Source: Chiridota heheva (taxonomy: Eukaryota; Echinodermata; Holothuroidea; Apodida; Chiridotidae). From it: 64,000 nt of DNA. Positions 20,251 to 64,000 of the stretch are shown one piece after another (position 1 is the first letter of the stretch; each line of letters opens with the position of its first letter). Both the position numbers and the translations under genes were made by a program. The DNA lies in assembly GCA_020152595.1 (NCBI GenBank), contig JAIGNY010001834.1, positions 787,001 to 851,000 on the forward strand, in the 5' to 3' direction. Below the pieces are notes generated by a model that saw only the letters and a program-made list of their open reading frames with translations, was not told the origin of the DNA and searched no databases.

Positions 20251-20412
20251 CTGAGCTACTATCAGCTAATAGCTCAATGATTAAACTAGCATCGAATTTG
20301 TACAGCTCTGTTCAACTCAGCCATGTCATGTTACCACACGTACTGTACGTGCATGTACCTAATCTTCCTACACACAATGTAGATCTATAATATACACTTC
20401 TCTGAATCTCTA

Positions 20413-22980
20413 AACGATTGTAATACGTTGATGACGTGTAAGTATGTGCCATGTACATTGTAATACATTGATGACGTGTAAGTATGTGCCATGTACATTG
20501 TAATATGTTGATGATGTGTAAATATGTGCCATGTACATTGTGATACGTTGATGATGTGTAAGTATGTGCCATGTACATTGTAATACGTTGATGACGTGTA
20601 AGTATGTGACATGTACATTGTAATACGTTGATGACGTGTAAGTATGTGCCATGTACATTGTAATACATTGATGACGTGTAAGTATGTGCCATGTGCATTG
20701 TAATACATTGATGATGTGTAAGTATGTGCCATGTACATTGTAATACATTGATGATGTGTAAGTATGTGCCATGTACATTGTAATACATTGATGATGTGTA
20801 AGTATGTGCCATGTACATTGTAATACATTGATGTGTAAGTATGTGCCATGTACATTGTAATACATTGATGTCATGTAAGTATGTGCCATGTACATTGTAA
20901 TACGTTGATGACATGTAAGTATGTGCCATGTACATTGTAATACATTGATGATGTGTAAGTATGTGTCATGTACATTGTAATACGTTGATGACGTGTAAGT
21001 ATGTGCCATGTACATTGTAAAACGTTGTGGACGTGTGAGTATGTGCCATGTACATTGTAATACATTGATGGCGTGTAAGTATGTGCCATGTACATTGTAA
21101 TACATTAATGACGTGTAAGTATGTGCCATGTACATTGTAATACGTTGATGACATGTAAGTATGTGCCATTTACATTGTAATACGTTGATGTCATGTAAGT
21201 ATGTGCCATGTACATTGTAATACATTGATGGCATGTAAGTATGTGCCATGTACATTGTAATACGTTGATGACGTGTATGTGCCATGTACATTGTAATACG
21301 TTGATGACGTGTAAGTGTGTGCCATGTACATTGTAATACGTTGATGACGTGTATGTGCCATGTACATTGTAATACGTTGATGTGTAAGTATGTGCCATGT
21401 ACATTGTAATACATTGATGACGTGTGAGTATGTGCCATGTACATTGTAATACGTTGATGACATGTAAGTATGTGCCATGTACATTGTAATACGTTGATGT
21501 CATGTAAGTATGTGCCATGTACATTGTAATACATTGATGGCATGTAAGTATGTGCCATGTACATTGTAATACGTTGATGACGTGTATGTGCCATGTACAT
21601 TGTGATACGTTGATGATGTGTATGTGCCATGTACATTGTGATACGTTGATGATGTGTAAGTATGTGCCATGTACATTGTAATACGTTAATGGCATGTAAG
21701 TATGTGCCATGTACATTGTAATACGTTAATGGCATGTAAGTATGTGCCATGTACATTGTAATACGTTGATGATGTGTAAGTATGTGCCATGTACATTGAT
21801 AGCATGTAAGTGTGTGCCTTGTACATTGTAATACATTGATGACGTGTAAGTATGTGCCATGTACATTGTAATACGTTGATGATGTGTAAGTGTGTGCCAT
21901 GTACATTGTAATACATTGATGACGTGTGAGTATGTGCCATGTACATTGTAATACATTGATGACATGTAAGTATGTGCCATGTACATTGTAATACGTTGAT
22001 GACATGTAAGTATGTGCCATGTACATTGTAATACATTGATGACATGTAAGTATGTGCCATGTACATTGTAATGCATTTATGACGTGTAAGTATGTGCCAT
22101 GTACATTGTAATACATTAATGACGTGTAAGTATGTGCCATGTACATTGTAATACATTGATGACGTATAAGGATGTGCCATGTGCATCGTAATACATTTAT
22201 GACGTGTAAGTATGTGTCATGTACATTGTAATACATTGATGATGTGTAAGTATGTGCCATGTACATTGTAATACGTTGATGACGTGTAAGTATGTGCCAT
22301 GTACATTGTAATACGTTGATGATGTGTAAATGTGTCATGTACATTGTAATACGTTGATGACGTGTAAGTATGTGCCATGTACATTGTAATGCGTTGATGT
22401 CATGTAAGTATGTGCCATGTACATTGTAATACGTTGATGATGTAGAAGTATGTGTCATGTACATTGTAATACATTGATGACATGTAAGTATGTGCCATGT
22501 ACATTGTAATACATTGATGACGTATAAGGATGTGCCATGTACATCGTAATACATTTATGACGTGTAAGTATGTGTCATGTACATTGTAATACATTGATGA
22601 CGTGTAAGTATGTGCCTTGTACATTGTAATATGTTGATGACGTGTAAGTATGTGCCATGTACATTTTATTATATTGATGACATGTAAGTATGTGCCATGT
22701 ACATTGTAATACATTGATGACGTGTAAGTATGTGCCGTGTACATTGCAATACATTGATGACGTGTAAGTATGTGCCATGTACATTGTAATACATTGATGA
22801 CGTGTAAGTATGTGCCATGTACATAGTAATACATTGATGATGTGTAAGTATGTGCCATGTACATTGTAATACATTGATGACGTGTAAGTATGTACCATGT
22901 ACATTGTAATACATTGATGACGTGTAAGTATGTACCATGTACATTGTAATACGTTAATGACGTGTAAATACATGCCATGT
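20413..22980. repeat. 40-bp minisatellite, ~64 copies
   Basis: The unit is GTACATTGTAATACATTGAT followed by GACGTGTAAGTATGTGCCAT. A few units are shortened by 3-10 bp. Each unit carries GTGTAAGTATGT, a donor-like motif on the FDFT1 sense strand, and usually TGACGTG. The minus strand lacks stops in all frames, giving a spurious 714-codon reading. Confidence 0.97.
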
Positions 22981-23318
22981 ACTTACTCACATTATTGTGA
23001 TTTGTCTTGAGATGACAGTGCCCCTTTAACCTGTACATGGTAATACCATTTACATTATGATGCTCTTCATGAATTATCTCTGTTGTAAGATTCCACTAGG
23101 CGTTCTCTTGCATATGATGTTTGAGGAGTATTTCTGTGGGCAAACATGTGAATGCCATATGATAAATATGATGAAAAATGCTTTGATGTTCCATTGGAAG
23201 ATATCAAATATTAATGATTCCACAAGAAGTATTTATTGTGATCAATACGACAGGGAAGGAGATTGAATGTCTTTTTTCATAAAATCTATATAATAGATAT
23301 GGCGAAAAATGCTTTATT

Positions 23319-38025: not shown

Positions 38026-40159
<2,134 letters not shown>

Positions 40160-44171: not shown

Positions 44172-44534
44172 TTATTCTGACGTCACAACATTTCGCTCCA
44201 GCTGTGTCCCAACGGAATCTGACGGGGAACCGTTTACGGAGTTGTATATACCACTGTGAGCTACGGGTGCTTCGGATCCGTTCGTGTGTTGCATAGACGA
44301 GCTCGTCTCTTCATGGTTGCTATGGTGATGATGAGCGAGATTCAGTGGGTTGGAGTTGCCGTTCGTGGGAGTTGACCCGTTGTTCAATAGGAGTCGAGAC
44401 TGCATGACATGGGCCATGTCGTGACCAGGATCCATAAGGGCGTGGTTTAATCCTAAATATGGGCTGAGGTTCGATGGTGATGAGGCTAAGGTTTGAGTGA
44501 GGTTCATTCCGAATCTATATTGCTGAGGTTCAAC
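44172..44534 (-). CDS. GATA4/5/6: GATA last coding exon, C-terminal region
   Basis: 120 codons and TAA, joined phase 0 after the acceptor ttcttcacag. It starts VEPQQYRFGMNLTQ and is serine-, asparagine- and histidine-rich (LNLAHHHHSNHEETSSS), ending RNVVTSE. No folded domain is recognisable, as expected for the variable C-terminal activation region. The stop codon sits inside an AATAAA hexamer, which is probably too close to be the poly(A) signal. I cannot place the 3' UTR end. FDFT1 ends 19.6 kb to the left, converging on this gene. Confidence 0.93.
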   Translation of the reverse strand, partial: VEPQQYRFGMNLTQTLASSPSNLSPYLGLNHALMDPGHDMAHVMQSRLLLNNGSTPTNGNSNPLNLAHHHHSNHEETSSSMQHTNGSEAPVAHSGIYNSVNGSPSDSVGTQLERNVVTSE

Positions 44535-44973: not shown

Positions 44974-45225
44974 CTTAATAGGTCCAGAATAAGCTACCGT
45001 AGATTGTAGAGGTGGCGAATGGTGATGCTCAATTTTGATAGGAGATTTGCTTCCATCACGTGACGCGAGATGATTTCCCTGACTGAGAACCCCAGATGTT
45101 GCACCTGAATGTTCTGATGACGCCTGTTGGGCGGCGGCCGAGGGCTGTTGCTGCTGAGAGGACTTCTTTGGTTTGCGTTTTCTGGTTTGTATGCCGTCCT
45201 TTTTCATTGCGAGTGGTCGGTTGAC
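44974..45225 (-). CDS. GATA4/5/6: GATA exon with C-finger basic tail and linker
   Basis: 84 codons, phase 0. It opens VNRPLAMKKDGIQTRKRKPK, the basic arm that follows the C-finger, contacts the minor groove and acts as nuclear localisation signal. A glutamine/serine/alanine-rich linker follows (SSQQQQPSAAAQQASS). Near residue 65 of the exon is SPIKIEHHHSPP, where IKIE fits the psi-K-x-E sumoylation consensus. Vertebrate GATA4 has an IKTE sumoylation site in a comparable position, so function may be conserved (inference). Acceptor cgtag, donor gtaagc. Confidence 0.95.
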
Positions 45226-50330: not shown

Positions 50331-50456
50331 CCCGTGTAATTTGTAATAAAGACCACAGGCGTTACACACTGGCTCTCCCTCCTTGTTTCTCCGCCATAAA
50401 GTGGTCGTCCCCGTGTGACAGTTGGCGCACGTGATTCCTTCACGTCTGGAACCCGA
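50331..50456 (-). CDS. GATA4/5/6: GATA C-terminal zinc finger exon
   Basis: 42 codons, phase 0 at both ends (acceptor tacttgcag, donor gtgagt). It encodes [31 protein letters not shown] and [11 protein letters not shown]. The four zinc cysteines (CANC and CNAC) and the TLWRR loop are present. This finger makes the main WGATAR contacts. The [12 protein letters not shown] sequence is typical of the GATA4/5/6 class. Confidence 0.97.
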
Positions 50457-61257: not shown

Positions 61258-61926
61258 TTAATATATATCGGAAGCATCAAATTAAAGTTTGTACTATATG
61301 AATGCAATGTACGTGTTCCATGACATCTAAGCAATCTATATCTTCATTGGATGACCACTGTAAACGTCACATACACGAAGCATTGTTTACGTTGCAACAC
61401 AAATCGATACATAGAAAGCCCAATGAATCGCCGTTTACATTACTTATTATCCAGATATCAGTCCGCGAGAAAACTTGATTCTATAGGATAATTCAGATCC
61501 TTAAATGAAGAATTTTTTAAGTAATTGCTATACCCATAATGCACCATGCGCCCCATATATTTAACTGTATAGATGGTCTGGCGATTTTTCAGTTTTATAC
61601 GAGAATCTTAAATGCTTTCCTATTCCGTTTCCATTTTTTCGCTCAAATGCCTTACAGTCGATTTTGACCGAATTTTCTACTACGTTTTCATCGGCGCCCT
61701 TATTTTTCATGTTTTCCTTAGAGGATAAAAGAGAATATTGAAGACCCTCTGAATTTTTGGGCCCGGTCCTTTCACCCCCTTAACTTTGGAAACTTTTAAG
61801 AGGCGGCCATTTCCCTACAAAACATTCCCACCCCTTTGATAAGTATCAATTATATGATATTTGAAACAACTTGGATTGAAATGGAATATGATAACGTATG
61901 CACGCAACATATGATTTCTAACTTAC
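61258..61926. other. GATA intron just downstream of N-finger version B
   Basis: No repeats recognised. This is where splice-choice elements for the duplicated exons might lie. Confidence 0.4.
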
Positions 61927-62069
61927 CATTCTTCTCTGGGGTTTCAAAAGAGGTTTGCTATACCCATTCATATTATGGTAGAGTCCACAGGCATTGCATA
62001 AGTAATGACCTGTACCATCACGCCGCCATAGGGGGGTAGATATTGCACCACAGTTCACACACTCCCGAC
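61927..62069 (-). CDS. GATA4/5/6: GATA N-terminal zinc finger, duplicated exon version B
   Basis: This is a second, complete N-finger exon of the same length (143 bp) and phases, with its own acceptor (tttattgcag) and a near-consensus donor (gtaagt). It has 17 base differences from version A: 13 synonymous and 4 that change the protein. The changes are K to N (HKMNG becomes HNMNG), F to Y, N to S and R to K, so NRPL becomes SKPL. All zinc ligands and the whole ECVNC-to-GLYH core are unchanged. Using both A and B would put B out of frame and hit TGA after four codons; using neither also breaks the frame. It is therefore most likely a mutually exclusive alternative to A. Confidence 0.9.
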
Positions 62070-62141
62070 CTGCAATAAAGACGTTTAGAGATTGGACCTA
62101 TTTACATAATAAAGAAAATGCGTGTTCAGTTAGAAACTCAC

Positions 62142-62284
62142 CATTCTTCTTTGAGGTTTCAGAAGAGGTCTGTTAAACCCATTCATTTTATGGTAGAGTC
62201 CACAAGCGTTGCATAAATAATGGCCTGTACCATCTCGTCGCCAAAGAGGGGTAGATATTGCACCACAATTCACACATTCCCGAC
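62142..62284 (-). CDS. GATA4/5/6: GATA N-terminal zinc finger, exon version A
   Basis: The exon has an acceptor ending aatttcag and starts with two bases of a split codon. It then encodes 47 codons, [18 protein letters not shown] through [14 protein letters not shown] to [12 protein letters not shown], and ends phase 0 before gtgagt. The CxNC-x17-CNAC zinc ligands are complete and the tail has the near-invariant NRPL. Joined to the C-finger exon it gives KPQRRM-SGSRREG, which aligns with vertebrate KPQRRLSASRRVG. This is the canonical version. The next copy begins 72 bp downstream. Confidence 0.95.
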
Positions 62285-62424
62285 CTGAAATTAGACATGG
62301 AAAATTTGGGCCTAACAATGCAACTTAGTCCGTCAATTTGGAGGGAAATCATATCGTCCTAAGACGCACTTCTAAGCACAGCGAACCCCCCCCCCCCCCT
62401 ACCCTCCAGCCAGTCGGCAAAAAT

Positions 62425-64000
62425 GGTCTCAAAATCCTTAACCAGAAAACTCAAAAGTTTAGTGGTTCCGATGCATTCTTTCATTGTTGATTGATTTTCA
62501 AGTTTTATAGCATTGCATATCATGAAATATGCTAAAAAATACATATACATACATTAATAAAAAAGAACCTGTTGACAATACTTAAAAGTATGATGCAAAA
62601 CATGCATACGGTCGCATATTTATCACTGTTTTAAGAATTTTACATAAAGCCCCACCTACATGACGTCACTACCAAACCAATAGGTCACATATGCAAACCA
62701 TAACTCACCTACAGTATACCACATATGACATGTGTGCAATGTGTTTTTTGTAGCATTTTCACATTGAGGTACACATGTTAGTGATATAACCAGTTGACAA
62801 CATTAGCATGTACAAAATACCTGAAAAATAACATGCAAGTATGATGCAAACAGACATATGGTTGCTACGAATTTATCACATTTTCAAGATTGTTTTATAT
62901 TATATTAAGACCCCCCTCCCCCTCCCCCCCCCCCACCTCCCACTTTGCAATATGCATGACATCACAACCAAAAACAATAGGGCACACAAACAGACAATGG
63001 GATATCTGTGTACAATATTATGTCCTGTATCCAATGTATTGTCCTTGAGTTACTGTGTTAACAATCTTTTTTCAGCAAAACCGTATTTAGCCCTGCCCAC
63101 CATGTATATTAATTATATTTAACAATTTTATACCATGAATATGTATACACTAGCTAACAACATAAATATACCATGTATGAATGAAAACAGACATGTAGTT
63201 GTTAAAATATAAGCATTTCACGATTTTTACATTAAGTCCCGCCTACTCATTGATATGCATGGCATTAGCACCAAAACCAACATGGTACATATACTGCCCA
63301 TGTGCTATCTGTGTACGAAATATGACATAAATGCAGTGTATCGTTCTTGAGATACCGTGTTAACAAGCTCTTTTCAGTAAAATCATTTTAAGCCACGCCT
63401 ACTATGCATACTGATGAATATAAACGTTTTTATACCACGAACATGTAGACACTAACTAACAACATAAATATACCAAGTATGAAACAAAACAGGGGTGTGG
63501 TTGTTAAAATAGGAAAAATTAATGATTTTTACATTAAGCTCCGCCTACTCATTGATATGCATGACATCACCACCAAAACCAATATATACGGATCATGGGC
63601 TATCTGTCTACCAAATATGGCATGAATCTATTTTATCATTCTTTAAATATCATGTTTACAAATTCGTTTCAGCAAAATCATATTAAGCCCCGCCCACTTT
63701 ACATGGTAATAAAATTCAACGCTTTCATTCCATGAACATGTACACACCAGCTAACATCATGATTAAATCAAATATGAAACAAAACAGACATGTGGTTGGG
63801 ATGATGAGCATTTCAAAATGTGTACATTAGGCCCCGCCTACTAATTAATATGCATGACATCACCACCAAAAACAATAGGGAACATCTACAGACCATGGGC
63901 TATCTGTGTACTAAATATGGCATCAATGTAGTGTATTGTTCTTGTTATACTGTGTTAACAAGCTCTTTTCAGAACAATCATATTAAGCCCCGCCCACTAC
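62425..64000. repeat. 300-bp tandem repeat array 2 (runs off the window)
   Basis: The array has the same GTGGTTCCGATGC head (62462) and the same unit words as array 1. Landmarks such as CAAGCTCTTTTCAG fall near 63062, 63364, 63660 and 63959, a period of 296-302 bp, in the same orientation as array 1. The array lies in the GATA intron upstream of the N-finger exons and continues past the right edge. Confidence 0.9.

Follow-up and report, generated by a model that had tools for sequence, protein, structure and literature searches.

The window analysed here is a stretch of 64,000 nucleotides, C1825:787001-851000 of the 1.1-Gb Chiridota heheva assembly. Its minus strand carries the zinc-finger exons, a lysine-rich exon and the last coding exon of a GATA gene (Table 1). 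At the position of the N-terminal finger lie two exons, A and B. Each has an AG acceptor and a GT donor, and each translates into a complete N-finger with four cysteines. The Pfam GATA model, whose cut-off is 26.8 bits, scores exon A at 60.2, exon B at 55.9 and the C-finger exon at 60.3 bits, all three exceeding the cut-off. Moreover, A and B align over all 47 residues to the PDB chains of GATA-3, MBP-fused GATA-4 and GATA-1. Coordinates, translation and Pfam scores thus agree with an earlier note on this DNA, which had described two 143-bp N-finger exons 72 bp apart, with their own splice sites, entered in phase 1 and left in phase 0; the start of the C-finger exon at 50456 was also read as the note had given it.

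Table 1. Exons of the GATA gene located in the window, with the spacer between A and B and the divergent part of exon B
Feature	Position in window	Strand	Length	Remarks
Exon A	62142-62284	(-)	143 bp	N-terminal GATA zinc finger, ancestral-like (RECVNC...); phase 1 in, phase 0 out
Spacer A-B	62070-62141	(-)	72 bp	Contains the donor of A and the acceptor of B
Exon B	61927-62069	(-)	143 bp	Second complete N-terminal GATA zinc finger (RECVNC...); length and phases same as A
Divergent patch of B	61954-61974	(-)	21 bases	Codons 32-38; holds all four A/B replacements
C-terminal GATA zinc-finger exon	50331-50456	(-)		Shared by the two isoforms; entered and left in phase 0
Lysine-rich exon after the C-finger (VNRPLAMKKDGIQTRKRKPKK...)	44974-45225	(-)	252 bp	Phase 0 at both ends
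Last coding exon	44172-44534	(-)		TAA at end; consistent with phase 0

By a consensus matrix, A and B have strong splice sites: the donor of exon A ranks 12th among 3593 minus-strand GTs and its acceptor 34th among the 3274 AGs; the corresponding ranks for exon B are 20th and 96th. Mutually exclusive exons are recognised, according to the title of PMC3228551, by equal or similar length, the same splice-site phases and sequence homology. Exons A and B share all three properties (143 and 143 bp, phases 1 and 0 in both, 88.1% identity over the exact exon length). Apart from A, B and the C-finger, no further degenerate N-finger copy was found in the window by blastn (E up to 1) or tblastn.

No upstream coding exon was recognised inside the window, where 62285-64000 reads as intron with repeats. 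Within this intron, the minus strand of 62700-64000 is made up mostly of diverged repeats, each a few hundred bases long (judged by eye; recurring segments gtgggcggggcttaat and gtgatgtcatgcatat). We searched for long minus-strand open frames in 80 kb of upstream sequence, including 5 kb of N, and found a candidate 46.8 kb away on the same contig. This frame of 442 codons was chosen by eye for its GATA4/5/6-like content, some of the longer frames being tandem repeats or N. It contains the segment PVYVPTTRA, which we take to be typical of GATA4/5/6 N-termini. The exon ends in ...LSRRPSS plus one base of the next codon (C1825:896110), followed by the donor CCG/GTGAGT, so that it is left in phase 1; this GTGAGT, with a score of 12.0, is the best among ten GTs with scores over 2 within a 461-base stretch. 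The phase-1 upstream exon that the earlier note had assumed was thus located, outside the window. Its likely start is at 897277 on the same contig, with a further in-frame Met upstream at 897391. Counted from the likely start, it has 389 codons plus the carried base and is the one 5′ coding exon found directly before the N-finger, and a single 5′ coding exon in this place is inferred for the ancestral deuterostome GATA456 gene in PMC2857956.

The N-finger, the C-finger and the lysine-rich region lie in three consecutive exons, as in the GATA456 structure outlined in the same paper. The class residues point in the same direction: this gene has KPQRR, as in GATA-4, and the second canonical GATA gene of the genome, on C1312, has KPKRRL, as in GATA-3. 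These residues favour a gene of the GATA4/5/6 type rather than the GATA1/2/3 type, the phmmer scores of the exon A N-finger being nearly equal for GATA-3 (97.6 bits) and GATA-4 (97.5 bits). In the whole assembly, the GATA family is represented by at least six matches, namely three fingers in this gene, two in the GATA1/2/3-type gene (C1312) and a single isolated finger (C1994). Among the matches listed, the present gene is the sole one of GATA4/5/6 type detected. The lone GATA-type finger exon (C1994:817090-817173, QCASCCTRRTPLWRDSEDGTPLCNACGIR) lies outside the two canonical GATA genes, and we take it to resemble ZGLP1-like single-finger proteins. Two further invertebrate deuterostomes are described as having two GATA genes each (PMC2857956). 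One GATA456-type gene plus one GATA123-type gene, taken with the genome size, accordingly point to the animal as probably an invertebrate deuterostome; COX1 had no match in the assembly.

Elsewhere in the window, two repeats generate long open frames. A minisatellite with a HILTRHQCITMYMAHTYTSS-like unit (20312-23095) has minus-strand frames open up to 714 aa and is probably non-coding, and a TA microsatellite of 526 bp (38028-38553) gives artificial Ile-Tyr open frames on both strands.

Reading frames of the splice combinations

Exon 1 joined to A and then to the C-finger exon, or to B and then to the C-finger exon, gives in both cases an open frame of 683 aa encoding a GATA4/5/6-type protein. 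The frame is lost when the two exons are used together and also when neither is used. When A is joined to B, the chain reads ...RRM-V-G-S-V-stop and ends after residue 441, with three exon junctions downstream. When both are skipped, phase 1 meets phase 0 and the chain reads ...S-V-G-F-Q-T-stop, ending after residue 394. Retention of the spacer gives MVSF-stop immediately. The earlier note had foreseen the V-G-S-V-stop and the phase clash on skipping, and had concluded that exactly one of the two exons must be used; both outcomes were recovered on the spliced chains, and the logic holds with the real upstream exon in place. Among the combinations tested, a full protein comes only from a single A or a single B, except for the improbable product of a cryptic acceptor that is discussed below.

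We propose that an old tandem duplication of the N-finger exon left two copies, both kept as a two-member mutually exclusive cluster. The phase-1 exon 1 would be spliced to either A or B, and the chosen exon then to the C-finger exon. Inclusion of both, skipping of both and retention of the spacer each produce an early stop with junctions downstream, and nonsense-mediated decay of such transcripts would be expected.

The stop in the A-B join also opens another use for the second exon. If B were a poison exon, A would do the coding, and the additional inclusion of B, which yields MVGSV-stop with three junctions downstream, would lead to decay and lower the amount of GATA protein. We consider this improbable. 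A poison exon does not require an intact finger frame, yet B keeps its finger in a frame that is read only when A is skipped. It has done so with few replacements, since the NG86 estimates between A and B are 0.037 for dN and 0.61 for dS (dN/dS near 0.06). Furthermore, inclusion of both exons would require removal of the 72-nt intron between them, which is below all 19 introns estimated in this genome (194 to 16,581 nt, median 2281). These lengths are the estimated distances separating neighbouring matches to the myosin-head profile, a sampling that disfavours very short introns, which could sit inside the 26 of 68 myosin-head matches that contain stops.

Divergence of the two exons and coding constraint

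Exons A and B differ at 17 of their 143 bases, spread over 17 of the 47 codons. By codon position, the differences number one at the first, three at the second and 13 at the third. Thirteen of the differing codons are synonymous and four are replacements (K32N, F36Y, N37S and R38K). When the same transitions and transversions were placed at random on A, four or fewer amino-acid changes were obtained in 2 of 100,000 trials. Neutral drift with half of dS on the B branch produced a mean of about 21 amino-acid changes, and not one of the 20,000 simulations stayed at four or fewer. With lower branch lengths for B, the fraction with four or fewer changes was 0.0014 (d = 0.15) and 0.038 (d = 0.10, which is a third of the assumed B branch). 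These comparisons are pairwise and cannot put every change on a branch. The sole outgroup, the GATA1/2/3-type gene of C1312, shows saturation at silent sites; it assigns eight changes to B (five silent, three replacing), and neutrality is not rejected by these eight on their own (P = 0.09). In the codons other than 32-38, the changes on B are five silent and none replacing (P = 0.004).

The likeness of A and B extends about 7 bases past the exons, that is, over the splice sites themselves. Further out, the flanking introns show no alignable similarity (none of the four flank comparisons beats shuffles), and the 72-bp spacer detectably resembles the introns outside the pair only in the bases adjoining the splice sites. 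Because the differences are mostly silent, neutral copies accumulate many more replacements in simulation and the flanks are unlike each other, the duplication looks old, with the pair held by coding constraint. This constraint supports the reading that one locus would make two proteins.

B, or else A, is hardly likely to be a duplicate that has fallen out of use and is decaying. Such decay would fit the alteration of B at residues common to the other aligned GATA N-fingers (K246, N251 and R252 of GATA4), its lower Pfam score (55.9 against 60.2 bits) and the compatibility of the outgroup-resolved B changes, taken alone, with neutrality. Against it, B retains an open frame, its four cysteines and both splice sites, and 40 of the 47 codons are free of replacements though they hold all 13 silent changes. 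The average of 21 changes in the neutral simulations at half the observed dS also speaks against decay.

The earlier note had named evidence of an assembly artefact among the things that would refute its reading. Such an artefact would be a second haplotype or a collapsed repeat placed beside A. A tandem near-copy is a usual mark of such errors, and here this origin was not borne out and is very improbable. The 12% exon divergence falls mostly on third positions, and the spacer and the flanking introns are mutually unlike. Moreover, the A-B segment occurs at one place in the assembly, with no second haplotype copy seen, among the matches listed.

Altogether, an old tandem exon duplication that left two functional N-finger exons, used in a mutually exclusive manner, is very probably the correct reading of the locus, and both isoforms would then be expressed. 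We further infer a mechanism that secures the exclusion and, with somewhat less than an even chance, a functional difference between the isoforms.

Candidate means of exclusion

Under the mutually exclusive use of A and B, the 72-nt spacer, shorter than every intron estimated in the genome, may help exclusion at the splicing step. Branch-like motifs lie 11, 15 and 56 nt past the donor of A. In exclusion by short spacing, as in alpha-tropomyosin, the donor of the first exon lies too close to the branch point of the second for the two to be joined.

The spacer also holds a cryptic acceptor (TAG, spacer base 44) that would add 28 nt to B and keep A, the extended B and the C-finger exon in one open frame, giving a three-finger GATA protein, but this would mean excising an intron of a mere 44 nt with branch-like motifs 11 and 15 nt from its donor, and since such an intron is unlikely to splice, this product is scarcely credible.

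The donor regions of A and B contain an inverted repeat (61915-61928 and 62123-62136). Their pairing was considered as an exclusion device and rejected: the duplex of -14.0 kcal/mol is equalled by 8.5% of 3,000 shuffles and by 9.1% of 3,000 intron pairs of the same spacing, so it is not above chance, and when the RNA is folded locally the donor of B finds its partners mainly in exon B. The mean pairing in this fold is 0.91 for the B donor versus 0.69 for the A donor; stronger local pairing could weaken the use of B. By analogy, splicing factors would decide which of the two exons a cell uses. A run of 14 G is present on the minus strand at 62386-62399, roughly 100 bases upstream of the acceptor of A. 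G runs are able to influence splice choice.

The divergent patch and other GATA genes

The four replacements between A and B are consecutive among the 17 ordered changes, an arrangement with a chance of 14/2380 = 0.006. The patch that holds them follows closely on the last zinc ligands in the N-finger. The first 31 residues are identical in A and B, including all zinc ligands, and we assume that the residues that bind FOG cofactors also fall within them. Since nothing but these four residues distinguishes the isoforms, the swap would most likely tune the DNA or partner contacts of the N-finger, leaving the fold and the zinc site unchanged.

At the K, N and R positions, A has the residues of the genome's own GATA1/2/3-type gene, so that B is the derived copy there. 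The three derived residues of B differ from A, from this GATA1/2/3-like gene and from the aligned N-finger chains of GATA-1, GATA-2, GATA-3 and GATA-4. In GATA4 numbering, as used in PMC5862610, the changes are K246N, N251S and R252K. GATA4 variants examined for congenital heart disease also fall in the patch: M247T, N248S, I250N and R252W are listed in an in silico study (PMC8749364), and R252P in another, which models R252 at the NKX2.5 interface (PMC5862610). In the relevant passages of these two papers, the tables list variants elsewhere in the finger too, and none at K246 or N251.

The patch has a second possible source. Positions 61955-61967 in B match 61525-61537 in the downstream intron perfectly over 13 bases, at a distance of about 420 bp. 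Outside exons A and B, no other 13-base match to B occurs on the window's minus strand, nor do the 80 kb upstream contain one on the same strand. The match was reproduced in none of 2,000 shuffles. None of 106 other intron tracts shares such a 13-mer, which makes a local copying event more likely. Three adjacent replacements of the patch may therefore have arisen from one local copying event and not from selection, and with such an event possible the clustering alone is no proof of adaptive change.

Among known systems, Drosophila serpent, a gene of the GATA4/5/6 class, comes closest. PMC8844375, citing Yue et al. 2016, describes a finger exon 4A and a motif-less exon 4B that are mutually exclusive, and an origin by exon duplication, probably in hexapods, is proposed. 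As in the present gene, a mutually exclusive pair lies at the N-finger position and is joined to the same kind of C-finger exon. The earlier note had set serpent apart as a choice between finger and no finger. This contrast stands: 4B has no known motif, whereas A and B are complete, nearly identical fingers, both recognised as full by Pfam, and an alternative exon lacking the finger was not what we found. The distance that the note implied does not stand, since 4A and 4B are themselves mutually exclusive and proposed to derive from an exon duplication (PMC8844375). In Branchiostoma floridae, also a deuterostome with alternative second exons in its GATA456 gene, isoform b uses one that eliminates the first finger, according to PMC2857956; there the finger is removed, whereas here it is exchanged for another. 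Vertebrate GATA4, GATA5 and GATA6 share the two-finger architecture and the conserved finger exons (PMC2857956), but their diversity comes from gene duplication.

In a weak search of the literature on alternative or duplicated finger exons in GATA genes, which covered open-licence and few subscription papers, no gene with two alternative N-finger exons was found. Outside this family, splice choice exchanges part of a DNA-binding domain in FOXP1 (exon 18/18b) and in the zinc fingers of Drosophila broad; these belong to other families and have no GATA fingers. What is new here with respect to serpent and amphioxus is that both alternatives encode fingers.

The composite sites and cofactors open to a GATA factor are believed to depend on its N-finger. 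One GATA4/5/6 locus might switch between N-fingers by splicing, with differing contact patches, and make two distinct endomesoderm regulators. We hold this extension of the mutually exclusive reading tentatively, at somewhat less than an even chance. With two natural fingers that are alike except in a single patch of seven residues, the role of this patch in vivo can be asked. If the extension is true, one locus supplies two endomesoderm regulators, whereas vertebrates rely on paralogous genes for this and flies on the loss of a finger. Alternative exons would then occur at the same position of GATA456 genes in insects, amphioxus and this animal, which would hint at the N-finger exon as a repeated target of splicing-based diversification.
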